From the NCBI GenBank assembly GCA_002105175.1, contig MCGE01000012.1:744001-808000 (forward strand): a stretch of DNA of 64,000 bases. Reading direction: 5' to 3'. Origin of the DNA: Absidia repens. Lineage: Eukaryota; Mucoromycota; Mucoromycetes; Mucorales; Cunninghamellaceae. A program made the position numbers and the translations under genes. The notes beneath the pieces are model-generated. The model was not told the origin of the DNA and did not search any database. It saw only the letters and a list, made by a program, of their open reading frames with translations. Position 1 is the first letter of the stretch. Every line of letters starts with the position of its first letter. This document shows positions 1,207 through 12,154 of this stretch, piece after piece.

Positions 1207-1799
1207 GTCTGTAGAATACATAGTGTAGTTTATTTTTAATGTATGAAAATTTTTACATTGACATATTTATGATATTCATTGTTAATCATCCAATAAACAT
1301 ATTCCTACGGACCTTTTGCAAAAAGTAGGATGTATGTGTAAAATGTGGCGGTGTGATCAAATGATAAAAATATGGGAAACATTATGGCTAGTGGGGGTGC
1401 TACGTACATTGACAACGGTTATATGGGTAATGTGCTATGTGAATTAGTATATAAAAAAAAAATGGGTATCATGGAAAATGCTAAGGATATTATTTTATTT
1501 AACAATAAACGTTTCACCGCGTACTATGATAGTGAATATAAACAGGAACATCGTCATGCGGCTGGTGTGTTTTATTCATCTATCAAAGAGAGATGGGGGT
1601 ATAGCTTATCTAATAGCTTAATTCAAGATCCTTATCTAACTTCCTTGCCTAACTTTACATCTATGACTTTGAAATATCGGTCCACGGACATTTCAGGATC
1701 ATTGGCACCACATTTTTTTTTCCTTTTGTGTCTCCACTATTTAACCCCGCTTCAGGATAATTAGACCACTATTGCCACCCAACATAATCCACCGAAGTG
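1207..1799. other. 3' flank with poly(A) signal and a doubtful 130-codon ORF
   Basis: AATAAA at about 1291 fits the 3' end of the upstream gene. An open frame on + at 1372-1764 (130 codons, starting MGNIMASGGATYIDNGY) is not low-complexity but matches no family I know. It ends next to a repeat copy and could be a remnant exon. Confidence 0.35.
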
Positions 1800-2535
1800 C
1801 AAAATGCAGAGGAGACTGACGTCAAAATACTCTGTGGTGGACTGTTTTTCTACACAAGCACATACCTTTTCTCCTACACATAAATACACACACACCAGAT
1901 TTCACTCATGCCCATTCAACGAGACAACAACAAGCATGAAAGAGATTAATGGTAAAAAGACAAGACATTTTTAATTATATATGTATACAGTATAAACAAT
2001 GACAACTAATATTAACCTAAGCTAATGGCACTATTTTAAAATGAAGGCTGCTAATCTAGTGGAAGTTGGAAATCACGAATCCAAAATGAAAGGGTTTCCC
2101 CATAATGTTTGTTTTGCATTTTTAAAAATGCCTCTAATTCAAATTCTAACAGTAATCCTAGATCACCAGTATTCCAATGAGGCTTGTCATCATATCATTC
2201 AGACTTCCATGAAAAAAAAAAAAAAAAAAAAAAGGAAGAAAGAAAGGAGAAGAGAGAGAGCCAAAAAAAAATAAATAAATAAGAATCCATGTGCGCGGAG
2301 CCTGAATTGAATTTTTTAACACGTTCAATGATATCTAAACACTATCCTATATTTATATTTAAACGCACTAAGCACGACAGTCGGGTCGCAAGGGGCTGCT
2401 CACCAAAGTGCGAAATGACGGAGGCTTTAATCCTATCCCATCAAAAACCCACACTTCAATAACTCCCCCTCCTGATACCCAGTAGTCGATGAATTCCAAA
2501 CGCTCCAGCGGAGCGCCAGAGCGTCTATTTCGTAT
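1800..2535 (+). repeat. family A dispersed repeat, copy A1
   Basis: About 735 nt similar to copies at 5770-6436 (same orientation) and, inverted, at 13410-14070 and 51935-52580. Shared landmarks in order: AGACAAGACAT near the left; the core TCCAAAATGAAAGGGTTTCC; an A-rich purine run; GCCCACC(A/G)AAGTGCGAAAT; AGGCTTTAATCCTATCCCAT; and a GC-rich end hairpin GCTCC..GGAGC followed by GCCAGAGCG. Read on the minus strand it has AATAAA-like signals before its end. No coding capacity is visible. It is likely a non-autonomous element or solo terminal repeat. Confidence 0.8.
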
Positions 2536-3094
2536 ACTGTATATACTATATAAAGAAAAACACCTAAAGCATTGGAAATTGGTCAATTTTGGGTAAAGAA
2601 CGGAGGAATTGTAAAGCAAATACGCTTATCAAAAAAAAAGGGAATGTTCTGTGGATAACTTAAACACCTTCTGAGTGTTTTTCAAATTGTCATTGTTCTA
2701 ATGCGTTCGTTACTGCTTATTTCCTTATCTGTCCTTTTTTCATGCGACTGCCAACTTCTCTTTTTTTTTTGAAACCGTTCAATAAATTTCGTTAACCTCT
2801 TGAAGTCCAGTGTACATACAGTAGACTAGACGCTGAGCGCAACGATTGGTCCAAGTCGCCTAACACATAACACCTTTTTTTTTATTATCTACATGCACAT
2901 GCGATGTGCAGTGTAGGATACCCGCTCGAAAAGACAAACAAAACATATAAGAGACGATGTATATAAAGCCTATATCTCACTACTATTTGTATATTATACT
3001 ATATCTAATACTATACCTCACCAAGAAATATTTCTCATTAGTTGGTTGATTGGAGCATTCATGAGCTTACAAGTCAATACTTTGTACCTACAGT
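2536..3094. other. AT-rich intergenic
   Basis: No convincing gene. Contains short homopolymers and a GTATACTGTATATAC-type AT palindrome near 2532. Nothing else recognised. Confidence 0.4.
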
Positions 3095-3420
3095 ACATCT
3101 GAATAAAACATGTACCTTTTTACTACAATGCAAATTTTTGCATCTGTAAGTCTTTCTCATGCCTTGTACAATAGATCCCATTTTACCATCGTCCTTTTAG
3201 ATTAGTATTGCCGCTTGTTATGTTTCAATAAAAGATACCCCATTTGCCTTTTTTATGCCCTGTACTGTATTGTATATAGTGTCAAATACCATTATACAGT
3301 TGTGTCTCTAGATTAGTGGTCACTATCTTTCAATAAAAAGGATCACTAAATATCACTTTAGACTTCTTCATGCTTCGTCCAATGGTTCTTCCATTGAATC
3401 CCATGCTACTATGAACCCTC
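3095..3420 (-). repeat. family B repeat tail fragment
   Basis: Matches the modular tail of the family B repeats: GAATAAAACATG..CCTTTTT, CATGCCTTGTACAATAGATCCC and TTAGATTAGTATTG..., with several AATAAAA motifs spaced roughly 90-120 nt apart. The GGGTTTCCCC core is missing, so this is a 5'-truncated or decayed copy. Confidence 0.6.
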
Positions 3421-5229
3421 GTCTTTAGTTTTAGAATTTACCAATGGCCTTTAATGAGGTATGTCTTGTTATTAACCATCCTCTAATTAATTGTGTAGTC
3501 AACAATGTCGTCATTGTACTGTAGCTAAGTATTTTTCTCTTCCACATACACAAACATATACATACACACATGCACTGGACATATAAAAAGCAATGAGAGG
3601 CAGAGACATTATATATTTTCAAAAGATTTTTATTGAGACAAAAATAATAAATGGATAATAATATCAAATTAAAGTAAGTGATTTGTGTTTTATTGTATCG
3701 AATAATTGATTGTATAAATGTTCTAAGTCTAAGGATAAAGTTGACTGTATCATGGCAAAGGGTATAATGGTGGACTGTTTCCTAGACTTGATTCCGGTTG
3801 TATCTTGAATTGAGGACCCCATGGATGCTGTGTAAACTTGACTTGCGTTGGCAGTAATCGGTAGAATATGACAGAGGTAGAACTTCATTTCCATTTACTA
3901 CCAAGGAAATAATGTATGTAGAGTACATCTTGATTTGGAATCCACCACTACGAGGAAAAAAAAAGGTTCAGTGTTCATTCTTAATAAAGTAATTTTTTTC
4001 ATTTTTTCTTATCTTGCTTCCATCCAGAGTAAAAAGGGATCCAATAGCAAATGGCAGACAAGAAGGCAGACGGTCACACCAGTGTCCAGTTAGTCTTTTG
4101 AGAGATCAGCACAGTAATCTTACTACGTAGGAGTCATAGGTCACCCATATAGAGATCACCACGAGACTAAAGCCCTTTATGGTTTTGATAGCTCCGTTGA
4201 CCAAAGGAGAGGAGTTCAAACGAACCCCCCACCTGAACAATAACGGTTTCCAATTTGCATGCCGCTAGAGATTTGTGCAAAGCAACATCGCAAGAGATTT
4301 TGTGCAAAGCAACATCAGCACGCGGACCCCACAAAGAAGCAAAGAAAGTCAGGAAAAAAGCAAAACTAAAAAGATTTGCCCTTCCCCATACGACCAACTC
4401 TGTTGTGATCCCATCAATGCCAAATCTTGCCTGCCAAATGCAGTTCCGTCAATTCCTATCCGCCTTGATAAAAAAAGTGGCATTAAATCGTAATATAAAG
4501 AAGAAGGTTAGTTAGTATTGCAGTTAAACATGCTGTATAAACTATTCTTTTTAAAAGGAACTGACCTTGATGTTTTCCATACTGGCAGCAGTATGTGCTG
4601 TGCATTTTGTTTGAGAAAAGATTGCAAAAAAAAAGAGTGAAAAAAAAACCTGGGGATTTATATGAAAACTCCAAAACTTAAGAGCAAACCTTAATTCCAA
4701 TCGCTATAAGAGCATGTGTTCCAAAAATGGAAATGAATTCATTCCACCCTTGTATTTAAACCGGTCGTTGCTTGATAGTGAAAAATATTGTCACTTTGTT
4801 AATCTACTTTTTCAATAGCTTTCCAACGATACCAATATCGTCTCATAAGATTGGTTATTTCTCGAGATAGTAAAACCGCCAAAGTTTAGTCTATTATATA
4901 GTGTGATTGAAATTCCGACTTTTTTGGTTCGGTTATAATCCCCCATACACCTTTCAAACTCGATCTAGATCAGCTTATTCCCTTCACCGTAGAATAGTTG
5001 GCCATTCGGCGCCGATGTCAGGAATTGACTAGGCAAGACAGTGATAAGTTATGCTTCACAAGACAGGGGCAAAATAGTAGAATAGAAGACCTTACTAGAC
5101 GTAGTATAGATTACGCAGAAATAAACATGTCGATGTTTGAAATCAATTTAGAAATCAAGACGAAGACGGAGAAAGAGTTGTATATGAATTGGGCAGGGGG
5201 GAATGAGGAATGTAACTATTGTGGAATGA
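3421..5229. other. gene-poor stretch with a short tandem duplication
   Basis: No gene recognised. At 4268-4320 a 26-27-nt unit containing TTTGTGCAAAGCAACATC occurs twice in tandem. Short open frames at 4255-4515 and 4998-5273 have no family features; the second overlaps LTR-like sequence. Confidence 0.4.
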
Positions 5230-9120: not shown

Positions 9121-9853
9121 TCTCTTTTCTTCAATAAAACATATATCTGCTTCCTTAAACCTTGTCTTTGTTTGAAATAAATGTTTGTTTAAGCTTTATT
9201 AGAAGTTTGGAGATCGCCATTTATAGAGATCCCTTTTAGAAATCCCTTTTTTATCGTACATCGTACATCGTTCCTTCTTCTACACCATTCATCAAGTTTA
9301 GTATCTCTCTCAGCTACTATTAGCGGCCCCCTATTTTTACATCTTCTTTCCTATTAGTATAGTATTGACTACGTATCATTATTCAATAAAAGCTTTTTTA
9401 TTTTGCAATGAAACAATGGAATGGCAAAGCTATTCTACTGTGACAGGCTATTGTACATACTATTCTATTGCGGTAGACTATTCTACATACTATTCTATTG
9501 CGGTAGACTATTCTGCATATTATTCTTTTATTGGTTTGGAAAGCCTATAGCGAAATTACCACTTTTGGCAGGCTCCGCGGTCGAGCTATTCCCGATTTAT
9601 TGAATTTTTAGGGGTGGAAGAAAAGAAAACAATGATTCACTTCATGAAATCATTTGGTCTCATAAAATAGAATAAAAGCAAATAAAATACCCTTGCAATA
9701 ATGTCAATCGTATCATCATACACCTAATATCAGAACATCATACGATTATAATAAAAATAATGATGATGATGAAAAATAATAATAACAATAAACCCATGTA
9801 ATATCTATTTACAATGAAACATAAGATATAGTATATAAAGAGTGACATTTTTA
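9121..9853. other. AT-rich spacer left of the piggyBac element
   Basis: Apart from the tandem repeat and the 45-nt duplicated block I see only AT-rich sequence with ATAATGATGATGATG-type microsatellite at about 9756. No gene. Confidence 0.4.
9430..9530 (+). repeat. 30-nt tandem repeat
   Basis: About 2.5-3 copies of a 30-nt unit containing CTATTCTATTGCGGTAGACT; the first copy is diverged (CTGTGACAGGCT). The 45-nt block shared with 8406-8450 follows at 9572. Confidence 0.7.
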
Positions 9854-9907: not shown

Positions 9908-10244
9908 CTAATAAAAATCGATTTTTGAAACACTTTTATTGGCTGAAATTCTTTGACCATAATATATGACAATGGCTGTAACGTGTAGAATAATACCGTT
10001 TTTTCCGTTTTCAAATAGCTTTGTTCTTTACAGATCTACATCCTCATCATCTCATCGCGATCTCCGAAAAAAAAAGAAAATGCCCAGAATCAGTAGACAC
10101 CTTAATGTCAACAGTAAGGTCAAAGTTTCCGCTCGCTTTTTGCATAAAACCGACGCCCCTGACCGCCTTACAGGCCTGTACGATTTCAACAGTAGGGCTC
10201 TTAATTTGGTCCCGTCCCGATTATGGTATTGAGAAAAAGTCCTC

Positions 10245-10545
10245 AATACCTGGTACCGATCAATACCAATACCTACTGGCGGTATTGTCTCGCTAAGGTT
10301 TTGGTATTGCTAATCCCGCTAAGAGGTATTGATCAATACCAACTTTTATTGGTGGTACCGTCCCCCTAAGGTTTTGGTATTGCTAATCCCGCTAAGAGGT
10401 ATTGATCAATACCAATACCTATTAGTGGTATCGTCTCGCTAAGGTTTTGGTATTGCTAATCCCGATAAGAGGTATTGATCAATACCAATACCTACTGATG
10501 GTACCGTCCCGGTAAGGAATTAATATTGCTAATCACGCTAACATG
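10245..10545 (+). repeat. 73-bp tandem palindromic array, first block
   Basis: Palindromes start at 10325, 10398 and 10471, exactly 73 nt apart, with a diverged one near 10252. Each unit also has GGTATTGCTAATCCCGCTAA and a GGTACC-type site (variants GGTATC). Confidence 0.9.
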
Positions 10546-10769
10546 GTATTTTTCAATACCTATACTCCTCACTTAGGAATTGTTAAGAGTCCTACTGATG
10601 ATGAACATTCGTTTACATAGCTTTATTATTCCTCCTACGCGTAGCTCACTTGAAACAACCCCCTCTTTAGATTTTAGATTGTTTTATTTTTTTTTACTCG
10701 AAATAAATTAGACATTATTATTTATACAACATATCAACAACGTCGCTTTTTTTTTTATTGTTTGTCACA

Positions 10770-11095
10770 GCAACATGTATTGCTCAATACTAATAGTTAT
10801 TAGTGGTACCATCCCGCTAAAGTTTTGGTATTGCTAATCCCGCTAAGAGGTATTGATCAATACCAATACTTAGAAGTGGTACCGTCCCGCTAAAGTTTTG
10901 GTATTGCTAATCCCGCTAAGAGGTATCGATCAATACCAATACTTAGAAGTGGTACCGTCCCGCTAAGGTATTGGTATTGCTAATCCCGCTAAGAGGTATT
11001 GATCAATACCAATACTTATAAGGGGTACCGTCCCGCTAAGGTTTTGGTATTGCTAATCCCGCTAACATGGTATTGTTCAATACCAATACTCCTCA
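10770..11095 (+). repeat. 73-bp tandem palindromic array, second block
   Basis: Palindromes start at 10849, 10922 (one change) and 10995, again exactly 73 nt apart; the flanking units are diverged. About 200 nt of non-repetitive AT-rich DNA separates it from the first block. Confidence 0.9.
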
Positions 11096-12154
11096 TTTAG
11101 GTATTGTTAAGAGCCCTATTCAACAGTCCTCGGTTGTCGTTTGACGGTCGTACGATCGCGCGATCTACTAATGAGGAACAGAAAGTTGTCTACAAAGTCG
11201 TGCTGGATGTGCTTCCAGACAAGGTTTATACAGTTCTTGGCAACAGTATCAAGTACGTTGGTCTTGTCGAAGACAGAACTGCATCCGAAGAAACTGAAAC
11301 CACTCCCGAAGAACCAGAAACTGACCAACCGGACAATGGAGACGTCCATACCGAAGATGACAAGAAGATCTGCATGATTATTTTTTTTTTTTTTTTTTTT
11401 TTTAGGTGCGGTTGACATCGCCAATAACCGTCGTGATAACCTCAACAACTTCCATGATATTATGTAAAGTCATCGTTGGGAAATACGAACGCTTGCTTTC
11501 TTTTTGGGTATTGCAGAGGTGAACGCATTCAGTGCTTATAAAAAGTTCCATCGCCATGGAGCTTCTATCAAGCACAATGCTTTCAAGTACAAGCTTGCGG
11601 AAGGCATATTGAAATTTGTGACGGATCAGGGGGAAGCAGAGCGTCAAATGCAGCAGTCAAGTGCAATGAACTTCCACAAGTCAGTCAAGTTGGGTAAATT
11701 GGCTAGTGGTAACAATATCCGTCGAAAGTGTTCAACATGCTCAACCAAAACTGAGTTCGCATGCATTTGCACCACCGATACCCTTTGTGTTGAGTGCTGG
11801 CAAATTCATTTCGAAAAAGCATGGACCGAAAAAAATATTTCGTATTAATTTAGATGATCGAATTGCTATGTTTTTAAAAACAAAATAAATTTATCTTTTG
11901 TTTTGCAGTTTTTATGTCATGTTTTATGAGCGGACATTTGTGTCCGCACTCCAAATAAGGAAAATGACCCCTTTTTAAACCTTTTTATTTTTTTTTTCTT
12001 ATTTTTAACAAAACTCCAAATTAATTCCACATAATTTACTAAACTAAAACAATTGATTCATAAAATTTTGTGAATGGATGTTTTTTTATTGTCAAGATAT
12101 CTTATTCTAAAGATCGGACATTAATGTCCGCTGAGTTCATATACCACTTGTTAA

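Follow-up and report, generated by a model that had tools for sequence, protein, structure and literature searches.

Subterminal 73-bp tandem arrays in a non-autonomous hAT element of Absidia repens and in its full-length relatives

Subterminal repeats are a feature of several hAT transposons, among them Hermes, Ac, Tol2 and Tag1. In Hermes, according to the sections of the published study used here, several BED domains are gathered on the subterminal repeats of the left end, a quasi-palindrome is bound cooperatively, exact phasing is important, and no BED domain binds at the right end (PMC10368747). End-near tandem repeats of variable unit number, and chimeric copies without target-site duplications (TSDs; Galileo) are already known as a convergent pattern, for which Galileo, Muta1 and Tetris are precedents to judge from the excerpts of their descriptions cited below. 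In this study, we analysed a 64,000-nucleotide stretch of contig MCGE01000012.1 of Absidia repens (hereafter the window), in which an initial annotation had described a hAT-like element with an interior of 73-bp palindromic units. No hAT of this make-up turned up in open-access full text.

The element, its insertion site and its copies

A 926-bp element lies at 10193-11118 of the window, with the perfect inverted repeats and perfect 8-bp duplication that had been described (Table 1); its ends and TSD are real. The terminal inverted repeats (TIRs) of hAT transposons start with YA(A/G)NG, and TAGGGCTCTTAA fits this pattern at both ends of the element. Its identity as a hAT transposon is almost certain.

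Table 1. Parts of the 926-bp element and its duplicated target site in the window.
Feature	Position	Strand	Basis or detail
Left target-site duplication, TTCAACAG	10185-10192	.	Exact match to 11119-11126; single copy at the uninterrupted paralogous loci L061-L064
Left terminal inverted repeat, TAGGGCTCTTAA	10193-10204	+	12 bp, perfect; sequence
Left subterminal segment	10205-10251	+	Sequence; same segment in other copies
9-bp inverted repeat GGTATTGAG/CTCAATACC inside left subterminal segment	10225-10233, 10242-10250		
Left block, five palindrome-like sites	10252-10560	+	Starts 10252, 10325, 10398, 10471, 10545; spacing 73, 73, 73, 74
Internal right-end copy	10561-10594	+	Inner TIR 10583-10594, one base off outer TIR
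hAT transposase gene-tail relic	10595-10775	+	DDEHSFT and stop at 10597-10620, then 3' UTR
Right block, five palindrome-like sites	10776-11084	+	Starts 10776, 10849, 10922, 10995, 11069; spacing 73, 73, 73, 74; oriented as left block
Right subterminal segment	11085-11106	+	Sequence
Right terminal inverted repeat, complement of TAGGGCTCTTAA	11107-11118	-	Exact
Right target-site duplication, TTCAACAG	11119-11126	.	Exact

Joining the flanks without the element (window 10080-11400) yields a continuous frame, which the element interrupts. Five other places in the genome hold this frame with 86-90% identity across the site, and a sixth holds it at 50%. The four paralogous places that were fetched (L061-L064) carry a single TTCAACAG and no insert; small deletions lie a few bases beyond the empty site in L061 and L062, and the frame stays open for longer in L063 and L064. 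The L063 ORF matches DDE_Tnp_1_7 in a Pfam profile search, and the two window halves of the interrupted frame alone gave no Pfam match; we read the frame as the N-terminal start of a piggyBac-like transposase.

The interior had been described as an array throughout, without a gene and with the palindrome GGTATTGATCAATACC in each unit. A 73-bp period was detected by TRF and also appears as direct repeats in two blocks, but the 215 bp between the blocks (10561-10775) are non-array sequence: a right-end copy, the tail of a transposase gene and its 3' UTR. The element contains no stop-free stretch of 90 codons or more, which agrees with the absence of a gene, except that a relic of the gene tail has been kept between the arrays. 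Palindrome-like sites (at most 3 mismatches) number 11 in the window versus 0.40 expected by chance, and none of 100 shuffles reached 11. Ten of them lie inside the element, in the two 73-bp blocks, though only five are exact. In all, the element holds 30 occurrences of GGTATTG or its complement. A separate tandem repeat reported by TRF (30-bp unit, 3.2 copies) lies at 9430-9526, about 660 bp upstream.

The exact 12-bp TIR was found at 85 sites in the 47.4-Mb genome, versus 2 for a reversed control. Genome loci that were fetched, such as the stretches around all 85 sites, are given L numbers here; ends were paired when the TIR had at most one mismatch and the ends lay no more than 7000 bp apart. 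Perfect hAT-type 8-bp TSDs, all different, flank 22 elements (21 from the genome pairing plus the window element), so the duplication in the window is no coincidence. Ten end-paired elements are without a perfect TSD (L009, L011, L013, L014, L016, L017, L027, L029, L030, L031), of which L016 has a near match. The initial annotation had allowed that other copies might lack the array; at least two palindrome-like sites were present in all 34 end-paired elements measured.

The window-type composite, defined as a match along most of the element length including the right block, occurs at 15 places (L010, L015, L016, L018, L019, L020, L024, L025, L028, L030, L033, L034, L035, L045, which is without the left part, and the window), and 12 of these copies have perfect TSDs. 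They are 97-100% identical to the window element, the nearest of the same length being L033 and L024 with 2 and 3 substitutions. The family, whose copy counts are lower bounds, has been recently mobile. With no transposase frame, ends in common with a full-length relative and many copies, the window element is a non-autonomous, MITE-like hAT derivative. Two other arrangements were seen: a diverged 229-bp member with a perfect TSD (L038, 501-729), perhaps of an older subfamily, and an outer TIR pair at 501 and 8777 of L035, which is 8.3 kb apart, beyond the 7000-bp pairing limit, and encloses an 855-bp element.

At another set of loci (L036, L037, L041, L043, L046, L047, L049, L051, L056-L059), a truncated composite without the right array lies inside a larger multi-kb repeat. 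These loci were considered as a second mobile composite and rejected, as the homology runs into both flanks. The multi-kb repeat multiplied on its own, and its copies add nothing to the TSD counts; nothing recognisable emerged on reading the ORF lists of L058 and L047. Downstream of the composite piece, a second hAT right end in inverted orientation was seen in L036 (about 2926-2998) and L051 (about 3484-3556).

Full-length relatives and the subterminal array

A search for an autonomous hAT with the same ends led to L022 (3936 bp) and L023 (3938 bp), which carry the window element's ends and different perfect TSDs, and differ from each other by four one-base gaps and 0 substitutions. The L023 gene model has nine exons on one strand, introns of the GT-AG type plus one GC-AG, and an open frame of 732 aa (six gene models for L023 in all, 732-750 aa). 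The predicted transposase matches Dimer_Tnp_hAT in Pfam at 66.6 bits against a cut-off of 21.4; zf-BED, with a cut-off of 20.6 bits, scores 22.4 when the N-terminal exon piece is searched by itself and 20.4, just under, with the whole protein. The shared ends and the BED and hAT dimerisation domains of this partner bear out the label hAT-like. Hermes is among its relatives with solved structures, the best Hermes match spanning only C-terminal residues 637-707, and candidate D, D and E residues of an RNase H-like catalytic domain can be picked out by eye in the predicted protein. Among 7996 candidates scored, 11 homologues were obtained, the nearest named ones being DAYSLEEPER/RICESLEEPER-like proteins of Rhizophagus clarus.

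In L022 and L023, five palindrome-like sites lie on the left and six on the right, both arrays being outside the gene. Five more copies of full or greater length, L011, L013, L014, L026 and L031, likewise carry an array at either end, and of these L026 alone has a perfect TSD; in total, 7 of the 7 such copies examined have both arrays. Because the full-length partner carries one subterminal array per end, the 73-bp array is an end structure of the full-length hAT and not an oddity of the gene-less copy. The motif CCCGCTAA occurs 10 times forward and 0 reverse in the window element, 15 and 0 in L023, and 10 and 0 in L026. Since it lies on one strand at both ends, the left and right arrays are direct and not inverted repeats of each other; a foldback element, with long inverted repeats of tandem units, was rejected on this ground. 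Some full-length copies have irregular ends: L011 and L013, which lie on one contig, agree in the 12 bases of their left flanks and differ in their right flanks, which suggests duplication or ectopic exchange, and in L014, which has no TSD, the left TIR meets the array in a phase unlike that of other full-length copies.

The array is highly regular. In the 34 elements, 175 gaps between neighbouring sites measure 70-76 bp, namely 73 bp in 132, 74 bp in 41, and 72 and 75 bp in one each; gaps outside this range (67, 68 and 78 bp) occur in L038, L021 and L014. On inspection, the 74-bp gap is the one preceding a right end, inner or outer. A site starts at position 60 in 32 of the 34 elements and is the first site in 30; a weak extra match precedes it in L040 and L041, and L009 and L038 differ. 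On the other side, the distance from the start of the last site to the right end is 50 bp in 33 of 34. Perfect TSDs also flank L021 and L054, which are 177 bp long and carry two sites each, so movement does not depend on a long array.

Across 57 distinct 73-nt units, the commonest base has an average frequency of 0.929 in the palindrome, 0.802 in spacer 21-35, 0.938 in GTCCCGCTAAG and 0.976 in GGTATTGCTAATCCCGCTAA, and the palindrome is perfect in 25. The palindrome was tested as the most conserved core of the unit and found no support, as it ranks 34th of 73 circular 16-nt blocks and GGTATTGCTAATCCCGCTAA is better conserved. Given this rank, the palindrome is conserved, but no more than its neighbours, which counts against the simplest docking reading.

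Comparison of the full-length copies points to an exchange of modules between two transposase lineages, A (L022, L023, L013) and B (L026, L014, L011). Between L023 and L026, the left 150 bp are identical at 150 of 150 positions and the right end at 128 of 129, versus 85% identity in exons, 77% in introns and 74.5% in the 3' UTR, which has 75 gap columns. Other A and B ends are less alike: the left end of L014 matches that of L023 at 115 of 150 positions, and the right ends of L013, L014 and L011 are 89-93% identical to that of L023. Along the gene, 100-column windows of the L023/L026 alignment give 92-100% identity at 515 to 1418 and 72-87% at 1361 to 3470. Residues 101-248, which include the BED finger, have a dS of 0.106 and agree at 145 of 148 positions; residues 249-732 have a dS of 1.33, near saturation, and a dN/dS of 0.065. 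The BED and catalytic parts give dS values of 0.105 and 1.31 for L014, and of 0.20 and 1.30 for L011, in the same comparison of lineages. Because dS is low in the BED exons and high in the catalytic half, we conclude that the 5' half with the BED exons was exchanged between A and B, and that the catalytic halves stayed apart. The low dN/dS, a pairwise estimate and not one per lineage, indicates purifying selection on the catalytic half since the split. Protein constraint as the cause of the common 5' half was rejected, as dS and the first introns are close there too; constraint is also an unlikely cause of the near-identical right ends of L023 and L026, since L011, of L026's own lineage, is alike there at only 114 of 128 positions.

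The window element is in our judgement very probably best explained as a non-autonomous hAT moved by a transposase that its full-length relatives in this genome supply, with the arrays as docking sites and recombination substrates. By analogy with Hermes, a function of the arrays in transposition is probable. Each unit would offer several short sites, namely CCCGCTAA and the palindrome, in which GGTATTG abuts its complement. As in Hermes, the BED zinc fingers of a multimeric transposase may bind these short sites, and a spacing of 73/74 bp, about seven helical turns, would keep them on one face.

Arrays without any role in transposition, which arose by chance beside the ends like a satellite and persist by unequal exchange and gene conversion, would explain why the palindrome is not specially conserved, why elements with perfect TSDs carry anything between 2 and 11 sites, and why the L023 and L026 ends are nearly identical across diverged lineages, which looks like homogenisation. 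This is unlikely, however, in view of the strict 73/74-bp length and fixed distances of the terminal sites, kept while the adjoining 3' UTR gained its many gaps between L023 and L026. Moreover, the arrays occur at both ends of every full-length or longer copy examined, the BED exons travel with the left end, and subterminal repeats matter in other hATs as far as the cited sections of two studies describe (PMC10368747, PMC4763223).

Unit number, gene-less copies and the composite

Copies in this one genome show what appear to be the separate steps of unit gain, array-to-array deletion, fusion of a MITE into a gene, and amplification. L010 is a window copy with one extra unit and a single substitution in 926 aligned bases. 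The extra unit is a hybrid, the first part of unit 3 being followed by part of unit 2, which has the appearance of a mark of unequal exchange inside a unit. In L015 and L035, the right block is one unit shorter, with 24 and 17 substitutions relative to the window. Unequal exchange between units would thus add or remove them, a process that the observed pattern suggests. Array expansion had been proposed to drive copy growth; L010 bears it out as an event, but gives no support to a role in raising copy number.

As the two arrays have one orientation, recombination between the left and right arrays could remove the gene. Such recombination in register would yield pure-array MITEs of 183+73k bp, and the lengths follow this pattern: 7 of the 12 short gene-less elements fit exactly (L032, L040, L060, L029, L017, and L041 and L043, each the inner part of a composite). 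Among the others, L012 and L009 miss the series by 1 bp; L021 and L054, 6 bp too short, and the diverged L038, 27 bp too short, do not fit it. In L017, units 1-3 are those of a window-type left block with one base different in unit 2, and the later units are those of a window-type right block, one of them twice; the junction keeps the register. As L017 is without a TSD, its recombination may have joined two copies at different places and not ends within one.

Most sites are in gene-less copies: 188 of the 238 palindrome-like sites (at most 4 mismatches) sit in the 27 gene-less elements among the 34. RNA folding prediction for the window element gives z = -11.8 relative to 20 shuffles. Both figures would suit arrays that are mainly parasitic, either by titrating transposase with gene-less copies or by folding as RNA and triggering silencing. 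We consider this quite improbable as their main role, as the same arrays end the full-length copies and hence were not acquired for that purpose, and folding is expected of any dense palindrome array. Titration and RNA folding, both raised in the initial annotation, are possible by-effects of the arrays.

The internal copy of the right end noted in the initial annotation is present and recurs in other copies. Its inner TIR, TAGGACTCTTAA, has one mismatch to the outer TIR. Matches to the 12-bp TIR with at most 2 mismatches number 5 in the window versus 4.72 expected, which is no more than chance, and the reality of the inner right end consequently rests on the flanking 400 bp and the recurrence in other copies. 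The first 402 bp of the element have the form of a complete pure-array MITE, and L029 is a free-standing 402-bp element, without a TSD, that is 94% alike. The last seven codons, stop, 3' UTR and right array of the transposase gene follow the inner TIR in this order; the same tail sequence also follows the coding frame in L011, L014, L026, L022 and L023. By eye, the tail of the composite is closer to lineage B (L011, L014, L026) than to lineage A, to which it is about 80% identical. Of 34 listed places that match a search pattern for the MITE-gene junction, 30 were judged real and 4 due to chance, and all 30 share the base change of the inner TIR; two more junctions, in L037 and L057, lie outside the search pattern.

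The simplest history would be that the internal right end came from a short pure-array MITE fused to the tail and right array of a transposase gene. A MITE would have inserted at the end of the gene, its left end and the right end of the host would have moved jointly, perhaps favoured by the damaged inner TIR, and the resulting composite would then have spread. We found no transposase gene in which the MITE is still in place, and we infer this intermediate from its products. Slippage or gene conversion within one element could also produce an internal right end, given that arrays recombine in this family and that the supposed inner insertion survives on one flank, too little for a check of its TSD. 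It is an improbable source for an end that stops exactly at the last base of the TIR and runs straight into the gene's last codons, and the free 256-bp MITE L040, which is flanked by a perfect TSD, shares its unusual last (right) unit and GGTATTTTTC site with the inner MITE of the window element.

Insertion of a MITE into the gene thus remains the preferred origin of the composite. More tentatively, and with somewhat less than even confidence, we propose that the arrays are a BED docking platform and also serve as recombination substrates, through which diverged lineages would keep a common binding module (left end, arrays and BED exons). Several transposases would then share one MITE pool, and the arrays would generate gene-less copies of set sizes, differing by 73 bp, in a single step.

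Gene loss in transposons is usually attributed to random internal deletion; here, the architecture predicts the deletion products, at 183+73k bp. The dS values of about 0.1 for BED exons and about 1.3 for catalytic exons make joint movement of an end-binding module and its sites between lineages directly testable. This hAT also offers a countable ladder of sites, suited to dose-response assays.

Comparison with described systems

Tandem repeats near the ends are found in elements of other kinds, described here from portions of the respective papers. Galileo of Drosophila, in the P superfamily, has end-near tandem repeats that expand and contract and reportedly contain secondary transposase sites, and ectopic exchange gives rise to chimeras that lack matching TSDs; its repeats lie in long inverted repeats, and its transposase is of another superfamily (PMC3573991). 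Muta1 of Aedes aegypti is an active MULE with subterminal tandem repeats whose number varies in non-autonomous relatives, but these consist of a 12-bp repeat present nine times within 145-bp inverted repeats, and the transposase is Mutator-like (PMC5225508). Tetris of Drosophila virilis is non-autonomous and has an internal tandem array of variable unit number; unlike the Absidia element, it is a foldback element with a unit of about 220 bp in its inverted repeats, and it also seeded a satellite (PMC4079207). Here, 187 of the 200 palindrome sites in the genome (at most 1 mismatch) lie within the fetched loci and the window.

Among hAT elements, Kat1 of Kluyveromyces lactis is a domesticated fungal relative in which short subterminal repeats may help activity; it differs in its domestication and in having six copies of a hexamer, with no tandem array mentioned in the portion of the text at hand (PMC4763223). 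Hermes shares with the Absidia family a hAT transposase with an N-terminal BED finger, short TIRs, an 8-bp TSD and subterminal repeats, and its quasi-palindrome, bound by two BED domains in the sections cited (PMC10368747), resembles the palindromes of the array. The short motifs of Hermes are arranged differently at each end, whereas the Absidia element has regular 73-bp tandem arrays of the same orientation and of variable unit number. The BED-bound left end of Hermes fits the palindromes found here every seven or so helical turns; the presence of arrays at both ends sets the Absidia family apart.
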